Below, piece after piece: positions 15,430 through 32,651 of a stretch of 39,520 nucleotides of DNA (position 1 is the first letter of the stretch; each line of letters opens with the position of its first letter). The notes beneath the pieces are model-generated. The model worked only from the letters and a program-made list of their open reading frames with translations. It was not told the DNA's origin and did not search any database. This DNA is from Gammaproteobacteria bacterium (GTDB lineage: Bacteria > Pseudomonadota > Gammaproteobacteria > GCA-001735895), in NCBI GenBank assembly GCA_030595795.1, contig JAUVCH010000024.1:1-39520 (forward strand), read 5' to 3'. A program made the translations under genes and the position numbers.

Positions 15430-17874
15430 GTGAGCTTCGATTACGATACTATTCGAGTAAAAAAGCAATCTCATGGCACACAGTGGGCTTCTTACAGCGA
15501 TCTGTTTATGGTGCTGGCATTTGTTTTTTTACTCATGTACATGGTTGCCAGTCTTCGTTCAGGCATGGTTTCGGCGGCCAGTCATGCCGAAATTAAGGAG
15601 GTAAAGCAGGAGCTGGAATTATACGAGTCGGTTAAGTCTCAATACCTTGCCGAGCAGGCAAACCCCATCGAAAAGCAAATATACCAGAAAGTACTCGAGC
15701 AAATTACTCTGCTAGAAAGCGAAGCCAGCCAGAAAAAGCAGATACTCGAACAGGAATTCAACGACCAAAAGCAGCGGGAATCGTCCTTAAACGAATATCA
15801 GCAAATGATTGTTGCGATGATCAATGCCAACGCCGTTGCAAAGGCAGAAGCGACACGAAAGTTCAACGCAGAACAACAGCAGAATGTGAAGCTTTCGAAA
15901 GAAGTCCAACAAAAAGGTGAGAACGTTGCGACTCTGGAAAATAAACTCGAAGTAGAAGCGGTTGAACTGGCCGTGTTAAAACAGTCCCATTCCGAACAAA
16001 CTAAAAATCTTGAAGGTAAATTCGAACAGCTAAAGGATCAATATGAAGACGGCCAGGGAAAGCTCACACAATTAGAGCAAAAATTAGACACTGAAGAAAT
16101 TGAAAAGAGGTCACTAGAAGTAAAGCAGACTCAGGAAGCTGAAGCCCTGGAAAATAAATTTAAAACTTTGAAAGAGGAGTACAACAAAGGGCAGACCCAG
16201 ATAGTTTCTTTGGAAGAAATATTACAAATGGAGAAGTCCGAGAAAGAAGAATTGCAAAGCTCGTTTTCACAGCAAAGTGAAAGCCAGCAACAACGGATTA
16301 GTGAGCTAAAAAATCAGCAGTCGGAAGGACAGGAAAAACTGGCGTCTCTTGAGCAAAGGCTGGCGACTGAGGAGAATGAGAAGGCAGAATTAAAATCTAC
16401 TCATAGCGAGGCGAGTCGAAACCTGCAAAGTAAAATTGAAGAGTTGACCGAACAGCAAAGTCAAAGCCAGGTCGAATTAACCGAACTCCAGGAAAGAATA
16501 AAGGCTGAAGAAACTCAAAAGCTGGCCCTACAGAAAACATTATCTGAAGAAACTGAAAACCTTCAAGGACAGATCGAACAGTTATCCGGTAAACAAAATG
16601 AGGCACAGATTAAACTGGCTTCGTTAGAGCAGGATTTAGCGGCAGAAAACGCGGAGAAGTCTGCATTGGAACAGTCGTTGTCTCAACAGTCGAAAAAATG
16701 GCAAAACGAAATTGACACGTTATCGCAATTGAAGAACCAGCGTGAGAATGAGTTATCAACCCTAGAGCAACAATTTGCTGCGGAAGCCGCAGAAAAGGCA
16801 GCACTTGAAAGTACCCTGGTTCAGCAAACCGGCGAGCTCGAAGGAAAAATCAAGGAACTTTCGGATCAACAATCTCAAAGCGAGGGCGAGCTAGCCGGTT
16901 TGAAGGAGCAGCTGAATAAGGCTGAAGTTGATAAAGCCGCATTAGAAAATGCCAGCGCTGCCGAAGTTGGAGAACTGGAGGGGAAATCCAGGCAGTTGCA
17001 GGATGAATTAGAGCAAAAGTTAAAAGAGCTGGCCGGACTGGAAGGAGATATTAAAGCCAGTGAGGATAAAATTGCAGGGCTCGAAAAGGGCTATGGCGAT
17101 CAGATTATGGACTTGTCCGATAAATATAGCGACCTGAAAAATGAATATGAAACGAGTGGAAAACAGGTGGGTAAACTGGCCGACGAATTAGCGACCGCGC
17201 AGCAGGCGTTAGAGGATACAAAGGACGAGCTAGGAAAAACGAGAGCTAATTTAAAAGAAACTGCTGGAGAGCTCGAAGAAGCGCTTGAGCTAGAAAACCG
17301 GCGGCGGGATGTCGCCAAACAAATCGAGGACGAATTTAAAAGGCACGGCATAGCAGCCGATGTCGATAGCGGCACGGGTGACGTCATTATAGATTTTGGG
17401 AAAGACTATTTTGATTCTGATAGCGCCGAATTAAAACCAGGCATGGAGCGCACAATACGCAAGGCTATCCCACTTTACGCAAAGAGTTTATTTGCTACCG
17501 ATTCTGATGTGGCAAATATTTCCTCGGTCGAAATTATCGGGTTCGCTTCGCCGACCTACGGTGGCGAACCGGTTAATCCAGTCGGCTTATCTGAAGAAAA
17601 TCGAATCGCAGTTAATTATAACCTCGATTTAAGTTATGAACGCGCGCGTTCCATTTTCGAATACGTATTCGACACTAACAAGATGGATTTCCCCCATCAG
17701 GATATTATGTTGCCGTTAATTAAAGTCACCGGACGGAGCTTTTTTACAGAAAAAATTGACGTGGCGGATACTGGGAACTTAAGCAAGAAAGAATTTTGTC
17801 GACAGTATAATTGTAATCAATCACAACGTGTCATCATCAAATTCGGGTTATCCGAAAAAGGAGGTTCTCAATGA
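15430..17874 (+). CDS. MotB/ZorB-like motor subunit with a giant repeat coiled coil and OmpA-like domain
   Basis: 814 residues from a GTG preceded by CAGGGA; a TTG 21 bases upstream is the alternative. The basic N-terminus (about 1-20) leads into one membrane helix with SYSDLFMVLAFVFLLMYM; the Asp (D24) sits where MotB, ZorB and ExbD carry the ion-binding Asp. Then comes a long predicted coiled coil (about 55-635) including ten consecutive 46-residue repeats at 148-607 without one insertion or deletion. The C-terminal domain (about 648-808) is OmpA-like, with YFDSDSAELKP and NYNLDLSYERARSIFEYV. The usual HTD Asp that binds peptidoglycan is replaced by FAS (about 705-707), while the Arg is kept. 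Two Cys near the end could form a disulfide, fitting a periplasmic location. The TGA overlaps the next ATG. Confidence 0.82.
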   Translation: MSFDYDTIRVKKQSHGTQWASYSDLFMVLAFVFLLMYMVASLRSGMVSAASHAEIKEVKQELELYESVKSQYLAEQANPIEKQIYQKVLEQITLLESEASQKKQILEQEFNDQKQRESSLNEYQQMIVAMINANAVAKAEATRKFNAEQQQNVKLSKEVQQKGENVATLENKLEVEAVELAVLKQSHSEQTKNLEGKFEQLKDQYEDGQGKLTQLEQKLDTEEIEKRSLEVKQTQEAEALENKFKTLKEEYNKGQTQIVSLEEILQMEKSEKEELQSSFSQQSESQQQRISELKNQQSEGQEKLASLEQRLATEENEKAELKSTHSEASRNLQSKIEELTEQQSQSQVELTELQERIKAEETQKLALQKTLSEETENLQGQIEQLSGKQNEAQIKLASLEQDLAAENAEKSALEQSLSQQSKKWQNEIDTLSQLKNQRENELSTLEQQFAAEAAEKAALESTLVQQTGELEGKIKELSDQQSQSEGELAGLKEQLNKAEVDKAALENASAAEVGELEGKSRQLQDELEQKLKELAGLEGDIKASEDKIAGLEKGYGDQIMDLSDKYSDLKNEYETSGKQVGKLADELATAQQALEDTKDELGKTRANLKETAGELEEALELENRRRDVAKQIEDEFKRHGIAADVDSGTGDVIIDFGKDYFDSDSAELKPGMERTIRKAIPLYAKSLFATDSDVANISSVEIIGFASPTYGGEPVNPVGLSEENRIAVNYNLDLSYERARSIFEYVFDTNKMDFPHQDIMLPLIKVTGRSFFTEKIDVADTGNLSKKEFCRQYNCNQSQRVIIKFGLSEKGGSQ
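15871..17250 (+). repeat. Ten in-frame 138-bp (46-residue) coiled-coil repeats
   Basis: Each unit is exactly 138 bp, starting at 15871, 16009, 16147, 16285, 16423, 16561, 16699, 16837, 16975 and 17113. Hydrophobic positions line up in every unit at about residues 1, 5, 8, 19, 22, 26 and 36, with Q at 16 in most and E-K at 32-33 in most. Units 4-8 are most alike (for example ELAGLKEQL, KLASLEQRL, KLASLEQDL at positions 18-26), and the first and last two are degenerate. DNA identity is much lower than the protein pattern, so the array is old and maintained by selection, not a recent slippage product. Confidence 0.85.
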
Positions 17875-18770
17875 ATTCAAGTATTGTCGAAATGGTCAAT
17901 TTTATCGTGCAGTACGCGACAGATTTTTTGATGCCATTCCTTCTCATCGCATTTATTCTGGCGGTCGTAGTTCGCGTTTTAATTACTATTATCATTAATA
18001 GACAAAGGCTCTTCGTCAAAGAATTCTGTAAGCGTGTGGATAAGGATCTCTATTTAAATCCTGATACGCATGGTTCTTTTTACAATGTATTAAAAAGCTA
18101 TCTGGCTCGAACTTATTTCGAATGCTTCGAATTGCGTGCGAAATATAAACGTAGAAATGCAGATCATGTGATGACCATCGGTGATCGAGTATTTTTAATC
18201 CAGGATGGTATCATCCGTTTAATCGATGACTTTCTCAAACACGCTCGCTATTTACGAAAAGATGCCAGCCAGCAGCCAAATTTCGGCGAAATATCGAATA
18301 ATGTATTCAGTTCGAACCCTGTTTTTAACCGGGTCTTCGGTCTATTTTCGATGAGTCGGGCCAATGAAATTCTCAATCTTTTGCCAGGAATTTTCATTGT
18401 GCTGGGGATATTTGGTACCTTCCTCGGTATCATGCGGGCCCTGCCCGAATTAACCGCGATGGACATCACCAATGCTGAAGCCAGCAAAGTCGTAATCGAT
18501 AACTTTCTAATCAGAATTTCCTTTGCGCTGACCACATCAATACTCGGTATTGTGTTATCGGTGCTCATGAGTTTCCTCAATACATTACTCTCCCCGGAGA
18601 GTGCCTACATGGAAATCGTAGATTCTTTTAAATCTGCTACGGAAATATTGTGGAATAAATCCGAAAATAATCAGATTAACGATCTGGAGCCAGTCGATAC
18701 TGACAGGGAATCAGAAGCAGTGAATTCATTTGAATTGGCGATCGCTAATATGTATTCGAGGCGGTTATAA
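17871..18770 (+). CDS. MotA/TolQ/ExbB/ZorA-like proton-channel subunit
   Basis: 299 residues with three membrane helices: about 18-43, 168-190 and 212-240. TM2 reads LLPGIFIVLGIFGTFLGIM and TM3 contains ISFALTTSILGIVLSVL. These are the channel-lining helices of the TolQ/ExbB/MotA superfamily, with polar Thr at 183 and 221-222. A 125-residue cytoplasmic loop lies between TM1 and TM2. Three helices match TolQ, ExbB and ZorA, not four-helix MotA. The long cytoplasmic tail of ZorA is absent, with only about 58 residues after TM3. The ATG overlaps the stop of the MotB-like gene (ATGA), so the two are coupled and should form one ion-driven complex. Confidence 0.82.
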   Translation: MNSSIVEMVNFIVQYATDFLMPFLLIAFILAVVVRVLITIIINRQRLFVKEFCKRVDKDLYLNPDTHGSFYNVLKSYLARTYFECFELRAKYKRRNADHVMTIGDRVFLIQDGIIRLIDDFLKHARYLRKDASQQPNFGEISNNVFSSNPVFNRVFGLFSMSRANEILNLLPGIFIVLGIFGTFLGIMRALPELTAMDITNAEASKVVIDNFLIRISFALTTSILGIVLSVLMSFLNTLLSPESAYMEIVDSFKSATEILWNKSENNQINDLEPVDTDRESEAVNSFELAIANMYSRRL

Positions 18771-18889: not shown

Positions 18890-19192
18890 CTATTGATCTC
18901 TCGGAATCTCCTCCGCCTCCAGGTGTTGCCGTTTATGGATCACGGCCAGCACTTCAATCAGGCTATCAGATTTGATTTCATACAAAATTCGGTAGGAGTA
19001 CAGACTCAACTCCCGTACAGCATCCACGTTCAGCTCGGGTAATTTCTTGCCCTTGCGGGGTAACGTATCCAGACCAATGGTTTTCTTAACCAGCGCTTCA
19101 CTGACCCGCCTGGCATAGAGTACCGAATCCTGGGCAATGTAATCATGGATGTGGCGAACCTGGGATTTGGCGTGAGCCGTCCACTTCACCAA
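18890..19192 (-). CDS. ParE/RelE-superfamily toxin
   Basis: 100 residues. The helical hairpin AHAKSQVRHIHDYIAQDSVLYARRVSEAL, with GLDTLPRKGKKLPEL, is the ParE-type N-terminal half; RELSLYSYRILYEI followed by EVLAVIHKRQ is the C-terminal beta-sheet of the RelE/ParE fold. ParE members poison DNA gyrase, while close relatives cleave mRNA; which applies here is not determinable. The start overlaps the end of the antitoxin gene by 7 bases, the usual antitoxin-first arrangement. Confidence 0.85.
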   Translation of the reverse strand: MVKWTAHAKSQVRHIHDYIAQDSVLYARRVSEALVKKTIGLDTLPRKGKKLPELNVDAVRELSLYSYRILYEIKSDSLIEVLAVIHKRQHLEAEEIPRDQ

Positions 19193-29791: not shown

Positions 29792-29831
29792 CATTCCCCA
29801 TGTCGATTTGTTTGTTATCAAGGCTTTACCG

Positions 29832-32651
29832 ATGAAAATGGTGCATGGTGAATTGACCGGGGTGAAAGCCTATCGTGCGTTATTGTCACTCGCATTCGAA
29901 CATAAATCCTATTTCCTGCTCGCGATTATCGGTATGTTTATATTCGCGGCTTCGGATGCAGCCTTCGCCTACCTGATGAAACCAATGCTCGACGATGGTT
30001 TCATCGATGGTGATCCGCTGATTATCAAACTCATACCGCTGGCAATCATTGCGATATTTCTGGTGCGCATGGTCGCGGTATTTCTTCGAACTTATTGCAT
30101 GGATTACATCGGTCGAAATGTCATCAATTCGATGCGCCAGAAAATGTTCGAAAAACTGTTAACCCTGAGTAGTTCTGCGTACGACCAATCCTCGTCTGGT
30201 ACCATGACGACTCGGTTCTCCTACGATGTCGAGCAAATAGCTCGTTCGGTATCGAACTCGCTAACTGTGTTTATTCAGGACAGCTTACGCATTATCGTAT
30301 TGCTGGCTTATATGTTCTGGTTGAACTGGCAATTAACCATGATCTTTCTGATTGCCGGCCCCATTGTTTTTATCATCGTCGTCAGAGTCTCTGGCCGTTT
30401 CAGAATTATAAGCAAAAGCATTCAAACCTCGATGGGCAATGTGACCCAGGTCGCGCAGGAAGTGATCGATTCCAATCGAGTGGTGAAGATTTTTGGCGGA
30501 GAAGAATTCGAGCGCGAGAAATTTTCAGTTATTAATCAACGCAATTTAAGATTGCATTTAAAAATGTCGGTGGCGCAGGCGATTAGCAACCCGCTGATTC
30601 AACTCATTGTCGCGATCGCGTTTGCGGCCATCGTCGCCTTCGCGACGTCGACTTCGATGCGTGGCGTTGTTACCACAGGTGATTTTGTCTCGTTTATATT
30701 CGCGCTCACCATGCTGTTTGCACCGATGCGTTCGTTATCTTCGATAAACGCCAGTATTCAAAAAGGCATTGCAGCAGGCGAAAGCATATTTAAGTTTCTG
30801 GCTGGCGAGGACGAAGTCGATGAGGGTGAATTAACGCTGGATCGCGCCAGGGGTGAAATTAACTTCGATAAAGTGGATTTAAATTATCGTGAGGGTAGCC
30901 AAAACGTTCTCGATCAAATTAGTTTTAAGGTTGAGCCTTGTCAGACCATCGCTATAGTGGGTCGTTCGGGTAGTGGCAAATCGAGTTTGGTGAATTTAAT
31001 ACCGCGTCTATACGAGTGCGATAGCGGAGAAATTCAACTCGATGGTCAGTGTATTAAGCATTACAAACTTGAGGATCTACGTAGGCAAATAGCCTATGTC
31101 GGACAGGATGTGCGTCTATTTAACGATACCATTCGTAATAATATTGCCTATGGCAGTGACGCTGACCAGGATGAGGCAGACATCATTCAGGCCGCGAAGC
31201 AGGCTTATGCCTGGGAGTTTATAGAGGACTTACCTGATGGGCTTGATACCCAGGTAGGCGAGCGCGGTGTGTTGCTATCCGGTGGTCAGCGCCAACGTAT
31301 CGCGATTGCACGGGCGTTACTAAAAGATGCGCCGATACTGATCCTGGACGAAGCGACCTCGGCGCTGGATACCGAATCGGAACGTTACATACAACATGCG
31401 ATCGAAAACCTGATGACGAATCGGACGACGTTGGTAATCGCTCATCGATTATCAACCATCGAACACGCAGACCGTATTCTGGTACTCGATCAGGGTGAAT
31501 TAATAGAGCAGGGCACGCATGAAGAGTTGCTCGATCAGAACGGTATTTACTCTAAATTACACTCGATGCAGTTCCGTGATGGCAGTCAAATCGGAGAGGC
31601 GACGGCAATACGAATACCCGCAAAATCCAAACGGGTACAACTCGAAAAAGTTGTTCTCAGTAACTGGATCAGCGCCTCATCGCAAAAGCGTCAGGGTTGG
31701 TGGCTATGGTCGATGAACCCGATGTCGATTCTTTTAATGCCTCTGTCGCTACTCTATTATGGATTATCCGGCATGCGTCGGCTGGCTTATCGGCTAAAGC
31801 TGCTAAAGTCTTCACGGTTGCCGGTAACAACCGTTGTGGTTGGTAATATTACGCTCGGTGGCAATGGTAAGACACCGGTTGTGGTAGCGATCTACCAGTT
31901 GCTGGAAAGTAAAGGTTATAAACCCGCCATTATTACCCGAGGTTATAAAAGCGGTAACGAGAAAAAACTACAGATTTTGAATGCTGGCCAAACCAATGCC
32001 GGGGTTGGCGACGAAGCCAATATGATCTCCGAAATATGCCGTTGTCCGATCGGCGTCGGCTCTAACCGAATCGGTGCTGCCGAACAAATTCTCACCGCCT
32101 ATCCGCAAACCAATATCATTATTTCGGACGATGGGTTGCAACATTATGCCTTACGTCGTGATATAGAGATTGCCGTATGCCGCTATGTCGCGTTCGGTAA
32201 TGGTTTAATCATACCAGCCGGTCCTTTGCGCGAACCGCGAGACCGTTTGAAAGACTTCGATATCATCATTAATCGCGACAGTGATCAAATCATCGAGTCG
32301 CTTGGACAGGTATGGAATTTGACTGATCCTGATCAAACGCGTCACATAACTGAATTCCAGGGCCAACAGGTTCATGCCCTGGCAGGCATCGGTTTTCCTG
32401 AAACTTTTTTTGCGAGCCTGAAACAACTCGGCATCGACCCGATTGAGCACGAATTTCCCGATCACTACGAGTTCAGTGCCCAGGATCTGGCCCTGAGAGC
32501 CGAACTACCAATACTGGTAACCCACAAAGACGCGGTAAAATTACGCGGCATCGCCAAGGATAATGTCTGGGTAGTGCCATTGACACTGGAACTGTCAAAG
32601 TCGTTACAGGATCAGTTATTTCAACTACTGGAGTCCAAACACCATGGATAA
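29832..32651 (+). CDS. MsbA-LpxK fusion: lipid A flippase joined to tetraacyldisaccharide 4'-kinase
   Basis: One uninterrupted frame of 939 residues from the ATG at 29832, with AAGG ten bases upstream; a TTG 24 bases earlier is also open. Residues 1 to about 575 are a whole MsbA: six membrane helices, Walker [10 protein letters not shown] (about 377), signature [12 protein letters not shown] (about 482) and Walker [14 protein letters not shown] basic, Ser-rich linker of some 40 residues follows. From about 620 it is a whole LpxK: hydrophobic N-terminus [18 protein letters not shown]-loop [13 protein letters not shown] (about 669) and catalytic [12 protein letters not shown] (about 765). MsbA flips lipid A-core, and LpxK adds the 4'-phosphate at the cytoplasmic face. 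These are normally separate neighbouring genes. The stop overlaps the Trm112-like gene by 8 bases. Confidence 0.88.

Follow-up and report, generated by a model that had tools for sequence, protein, structure and literature searches.

Ion-driven motors of the 5:2 type power flagella, gliding, nutrient uptake, outer-membrane upkeep and phage defence. In Zorya the ZorAB pair (PMC11890865; PDB 8vvi, 8vvn, 8qyd) has a B subunit with an aspartate-bearing helix and a ZorB-type wall domain, and the long helix of the system is the cytoplasmic tail of ZorA. MotAB and PomAB (PMC12505986) likewise carry the channel aspartate in the N-terminal helix, and their B subunit ends in an OmpA-like wall domain; the plug and linker of MotB measure about 50 residues. 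TolQRA/Pal and TonB-ExbBD (PMC10666116, PMC12204202) are motor relatives of the 5:2 type with a long periplasmic helical element; domain II of TolA, a third protein which reaches the outer membrane, often exceeds the width of the periplasm (PMC10666116, PMC12204202) and ranged from 110 to 335 residues in a survey (PMC12204202). The AglRQS/Glt gliding motors of Myxococcus and Bdellovibrio (PMC3169522) are also envelope motors, whose AglQ and AglS are of the ExbD/TolR type and have no OmpA-like domain.

The stretch of DNA analysed here, 39,520 nucleotides in full and called the window below, carries two adjacent genes which, judged by homology, are a motor pair. Residues of the B subunit are numbered with TTG 15409 as residue 1. 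The pair is composed of the following features.

15430..17874, forward strand: gene of the motor B subunit, 814 amino acids from GTG (the listed open reading frame, from TTG 15409, has 821).
15484..15558, forward strand: MotB-type transmembrane helix, residues 26-50, WASYSDLFMVLAFVFLLMYMVASLR, recognised in the sequence, its aspartate conserved in the relatives.
15499..15501, forward strand: Asp31, the expected ion-channel aspartate, conserved across two phyla.
15577..15870, forward strand: conserved non-repetitive helical segment, residues 57-154, from the membrane helix to the repeats, seen in the alignment and, in the AlphaFold model, as a helix briefly interrupted at 83-85.
15871..17112, forward strand: nine coiled-coil units of 46 residues and 13 turns (residues 155-568), from the in-register profile test, the periodogram and the unit spacing.
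17113..17343, forward strand: distal coil, residues 569-645, with the same seam and no repeat unit (profile score -9.6), helical to residue 645 in the AlphaFold model.
17344..17871, forward strand: ZorB/OmpA-type peptidoglycan-binding domain with the NLDLSYERARS motif and cysteines 797 and 802, from PADLOC, profile and structure matches.
17871..18770, forward strand: motor A (ring) subunit, 299 amino acids, MotA/TolQ/ExbB family, from PF01618 and its structural neighbours, ZorA and then ExbB/TolQ.

The reading which we prefer, with a probability of roughly 0.68, takes the two genes to encode an ion-driven 5:2 motor akin to ZorAB and MotAB, whose B subunit has in its repeats an extended shaft or tether within the periplasm. 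The pair combines an A subunit of the MotA/TolQ/ExbB family (PF01618, 24.7 bits against a cut-off of 22.9) with an adjacent B gene whose N-terminal helix bears an aspartate, and the start of A overlaps the stop of B by 4 bp (ATGA). The closest structure to the A-subunit model is ZorA, followed by ExbB and TolQ, all below Foldseek significance, and the sequence similarity to ZorA is weak (E about 0.004-0.02). The A subunit has the three-helix layout of TolQ and ZorA and not that of MotA, and ends about 60 residues past its last membrane helix, with no long cytoplasmic tail. An arrangement of five A subunits around two B subunits, together with ion flow, we infer from PMC11890865 and PMC9389320.

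The true start of the B gene is probably GTG 15430 and not the listed TTG 15409, since the gamma relatives share the context of the former, a ribosome site of the GGGA type together with GTG AGC TTC/TTT GA[TC] TA[CT]; one gamma relative has TTG instead of GTG at this conserved start. Automatic start choice would miss the GTG. The N-terminal MotB-type membrane helix (WASYSDLFMVLAFVFLLMYMV) contains Asp31, and wherever the motif was found in a relative the aspartate is there, in the form of YSDL (60), NSDL (2), YADL (2) or YSDM (1); an NADL string in one relative was rejected as a false motif match within a coil. By position and motif Asp31 is expected to be equivalent to the channel aspartate of MotB and ZorB (for ZorB, PMC11890865). 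The sole proline of the coil, residue 87, falls in the non-repetitive segment which follows.

At the other end of the protein, the C-terminal domain (residues 646-821) matches PADLOC ZorB1 (E 2.2e-25), and each of 38 relatives is matched by ZorB profiles. Against solved structures the domain as a single sequence gave chance matches only and the family profile was required, which finds the ZorB structure chain 8vvi (E 2e-6); the AlphaFold model of the domain also has 8vvi as its best structure match (Z 14.1), followed by other ZorB and MotB domains. Cysteines 797 and 802 are invariant in the alignment, across phyla, and are compatible with a periplasmic disulphide. The loop at 17539-17571 (residues 711-721, GFASPTYGGEP) has the conserved motif GF[AS]S[PS]T[YF] throughout the family, in two phyla. 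At the GFASPTY position the wall-binding loop of OmpA usually has a G-x-T/A-D motif with the canonical aspartate; with this residue replaced, wall binding could be altered.

Between the two ends lies the array, in which a period of 46 residues (138 bp) runs without insertion or deletion through nine consecutive units (15871-17112). Identity within the coil is 0.28 at lag 46; neighbouring lags give 0.07-0.14, and the other coil-compatible lags 0.09-0.15. When each unit was scored in 46 registers against a profile of the remaining ones, the expected register was the top one of the 46 in each of the nine units (residues 155-568). The earlier note had counted ten exact repeats; nine of these hold, and the last block (residues 569-614, 17113-17250) is coil but scores -9.6 and is out of register, so that there is no tenth unit. 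The note had overlooked the motor itself, with its aspartate-bearing MotB-type helix, its wall domain and the overlapping gene of the ring subunit. That the DNA has diverged between the units, as the same note said, is borne out by a mean unit-to-unit identity of 44.5% for DNA and 28% for protein, from which we take the units to be old. Tandem Repeats Finder, run on the DNA, did not report the array, and protein-level tests were required. In 97 units of the family the core layers are positions 1, 5, 8, 12, 15, 19, 22, 26, 29, 33, 36, 40 and 43/44, with mostly leucine at 8, 22, 26 and 36, and two polar pairs recur in each unit, 12/15 and 29/33 (Glu29, Lys33). Pfam and NCBIfam matches of the coil to IFT57, SMC and Rad50 were discarded as generic coiled-coil similarity.

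The hydrophobicity periodogram of residues 57-640 shows one sharp maximum, at 3.54 residues per turn (46/13), with a power of 38; the power at exactly 3.5 is 3.0 and the maximum among 100 shuffles about 9-10. The peak is thus within the 3.5-3.67 residues per turn of a long stuttered coiled coil, with a full-length seam, and confirms that a unit of 46 residues carries one stutter and makes about 13 helical turns. If straight, the nine units would measure about 61 nm, instead of the 69 nm first estimated, and the helical stretch of about 585 residues (57-640) about 87 nm, so that the original remark that the coil is longer than a usual periplasm stands for a straight coil. A coil of 87 nm whose end is bound to peptidoglycan cannot stand upright and would therefore lie along the wall or fold.

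The second possibility leads to the first alternative, which we regard as unlikely: the coil would fold back into three helical legs, hinged at the polar layers 12-17 of the unit, and form a compact bundle of about 25-35 nm spanning the periplasm. The AlphaFold monomer of the B subunit does give three helices (86-258, 266-487 and 494-645), and their breaks, at 259-265 and 488-493, fall at the same polar layers of the unit, which makes hinging of the coil at these recurrent layers possible; the model is however that of a monomer, and its confidence is low (mean pLDDT 58.5). In a simple core-matching score, which separates the two arrangements poorly, the best antiparallel pairing (0.53) comes close to the parallel one (0.60), and electrostatic scores likewise left the pairing undecided. 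Against folding back, the hydrophobic seam keeps one phase over the full length with no slip at the would-be hinges, and the gain of a whole unit at one place would shift one leg only.

Homologues differ in the number of such units. In sixteen homologues of the same genus, with 132 spacings between units, the spacing is 46 in 117 cases, 57 in eight, 60 in four, and 71, 81 and 92 in one each. The spacing of 92 (G022) is a skipped unit and that of 81 (G006) an assembly or frame problem in a broken-frame protein, and neither was accepted as a unit size. The membrane helix and the wall domain are 591 to 797 residues apart, and the recognised units number 8-12; the nearest relative of the B subunit described here is colinear with it unit by unit and carries one additional unit of 60 residues.

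These figures bear on a second alternative, a molecular ruler in which selection on total length would account for the strict unit size. It can call upon the prevalence of the 46-residue spacing and upon six relatives which share an identical membrane-to-anchor distance of 591 residues, but within one genus both the distance and the number of units vary and spacings other than 46 occur, so that we hold it to be quite improbable. The additions to 46, of 11, 14 and 25 residues, are coil quanta which keep whole turns, and among lengths from 1 to 45 only ten have a phase error as small as the observed additions. Four register-keeping events would occur by chance with a probability of about 0.002, a value which assumes that the events are independent and that the threshold was set without regard to the data; as it was in fact chosen on the data, the value is indicative only. 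Since the additions keep whole turns while the lengths differ, register is kept and length is not, and selection looks to be on the helical register and not on total length. Of the earlier claim that a strict unit length implies selection on length or register, the constraint on register is retained; the strictness itself is contradicted by the homologues. The family constitutes a natural experiment in changing the length of a coiled coil, in which gains of 46, 60, 57 and 71 residues always keep whole turns, and such gains allow selection on register to be told apart from that on length.

In order to describe the distribution of the pair, genome contigs were scanned with an A-subunit profile. 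The scan returned about 20 loci of the gamma clade, including two labelled by their depositors as Moraxellaceae and Spongiibacteraceae, and about 57 further loci with 36-51% identity, nearly all from Bdellovibrionota or from Proteobacteria grouping with them. A gene with the B architecture stands just upstream of the A gene in the gamma loci, as it does at almost every Bdellovibrionota locus. A full-length A-subunit match (more than 250 bits) was present in 74 of 191 Bdellovibrionota genomes; among 370 sampled Gammaproteobacteria only two genomes gave matches, both of the genus of the source organism. A tree of 79 A subunits was rooted at the midpoint, distant paralogues serving as outgroup. 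The 18 gamma rows form a single clade in it (100/100), which several well-supported branches place inside Bdellovibrionota; one transfer into the gamma lineage is the simplest reading.

The 46-residue period was sought in 49 Bdellovibrionota coils of 255-484 residues and is absent from them (mean identity at lag 46 of 0.101, background 0.094). The pitch of 3.54 is coherent in all 14 gamma coils, and 47 of the 49 Bdellovibrionota coils have a significant single peak, with a median of 3.54 (interquartile range 3.528-3.55); in five complete Bdellovibrionota genomes it is 3.50-3.53, two of the peaks being weak. The coils of a neighbouring FHA-domain protein served as a control; most of them peak at 3.64-3.69 and some near 3.51. 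The pitch of 3.54 is thus a family trait with some spread. As the Bdellovibrionota coils share the pitch without the repeat, the 46-residue unit looks like a cassette which fits the family pitch and was gained in the gamma lineage, and the median coil length goes from 366 residues in Bdellovibrionota to 568 in the gamma lineage.

The gene of this FHA-domain protein follows the motor pair as a third gene in at least 48 of 57 Bdellovibrionota loci. The protein has an FHA domain, a long coil of cytoplasmic type, one membrane helix and a conserved C-terminal domain (YTDNVIYT) with no Pfam match, and its size varies from about 730 to 1445 residues (L109:2980-7314, L124:7187-9970, L154:6997-9480 and others). 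All 31 genomes of the source genus were searched for it and none has it, while six of six Bdellovibrionota control genomes were positive.

The gamma loci are surrounded by unrelated metabolic genes, and the flanks in the window contain hemerythrin, SDR, PLD-like, ParE toxin, isochorismatase and rhodanese genes. The ParE-type toxin gene (18890-19192, reverse strand) is found directly behind the motor operon. Further along, downstream of ComEC and an ExbB-like gene, a single open reading frame of 947 residues (29808-32651) fuses an MsbA-type ABC exporter to LpxK. A second, distant motor pair is present in other genomes of the genus (L022, L023, L053-L056), composed of an OmpA-ended coil protein of 460-707 amino acids, rich in KQELAAQQARLEAQKAQE-type sequence, and an A subunit of about 350 amino acids; it had no match in the source organism's own genome.

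Two further alternatives concern the function of the motor. A Zorya-type anti-phage defence, with the coil moved from the tail of the A subunit to the B subunit, would account for the match of every B subunit to ZorB profiles and for ZorA and ZorB as the closest structures. However, the neighbouring genes scanned with Pfam and PADLOC gave no match to ZorC, ZorD or ZorE, the A subunit is without the long cytoplasmic tail, the neighbours are metabolic and the occurrence within the genus is steady and vertical, and we consider this very improbable. We say the same of a spare or alternative flagellar stator, which the MotB-like helix, the wall domain and the existence of flagellated species in the genus would suggest, but which is at odds with the layout of the A subunit, with the lack of flagellar genes among the neighbouring genes scanned and with a presence of the motor independent of flagellin (motor without flagellin in G008, 96% complete, and G007; flagellin without motor in G023, 99% complete). 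A surface fibre or adhesin stalk projecting the coil from the cell, which would suit a coil longer than the periplasm and which the earlier note had admitted in the form of a coil reaching out of the cell, is very unlikely, given the ZorB/MotB-type peptidoglycan-binding domain at its far C-terminal end and the gene of a proton-channel subunit paired with it in both phyla.

In the extended shaft or tether which we prefer, the A subunits would form an inner-membrane ring around two B helices with the channel aspartate, and the two B chains would continue, presumably as a parallel dimer, in one very long coiled coil up to the C-terminal domain, which by homology would bind peptidoglycan. Ion flow would then turn the ring of A subunits against an axle anchored to the wall, the long coil serving as a flexible drive shaft or as a long-reach anchor which runs along the wall or is folded, and is not upright. 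The motor family, widespread in Bdellovibrionota, would have entered the gammaproteobacterial lineage once, and there the coil would have been lengthened by tandem gain of the 46-residue cassette; because 46 residues make almost exactly 13 turns of the family pitch, units could be gained or lost without breaking the hydrophobic seam.

A wider proposal, which we put forward tentatively and regard as possible at best, is that of an undescribed class of ZorAB-like envelope motors, widespread in Bdellovibrionota and passed once to marine gammaproteobacteria, whose unusually long coiled-coil shaft, of about 50-110 nm when straight, ends in a wall anchor. Its pitch would be under selection and its length would change via register-keeping cassettes, and the coil would serve torsional or lateral transmission and not be a simple linker. 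The motor type itself is already known; for a B subunit with such a coil no description was found in the open literature searched, most subscription papers being outside it, nor was any experiment on a member of the family found. The pair would add a branch to the 5:2 motors, widespread in predatory bacteria and present in some complete Bdellovibrionota genomes. Should the coil transmit torque, the living cell would offer a testable case of the mechanics of a long, flexible drive shaft.

Among the described systems, ZorAB is alike in the aspartate-bearing helix and wall domain of B and in having the structure nearest to the A subunit, and differs in that the long helix, which here is periplasmic and part of B, is there cytoplasmic and part of A; here, in addition, the A subunit has only 299 amino acids and none of ZorC, ZorD and ZorE was found alongside. 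From MotAB and PomAB, with which it shares the position of the channel aspartate and of the wall domain, the pair is distinguished by about 600 residues in place of the short plug and linker, by an A subunit without the four-helix layout of MotA and by the missing link to flagella. The AglRQS/Glt gliding motors are found in the same predatory lineage and have another set of genes, in addition to their B-type subunits being of a different kind. In distinction to the Tol system, the gamma two-gene cassette has no TolA-type third protein; the coil is built into the B subunit itself and ends in an OmpA/ZorB-type wall-binding domain, and it is roughly twice as long as the longest domain II of TolA surveyed (PMC12204202).
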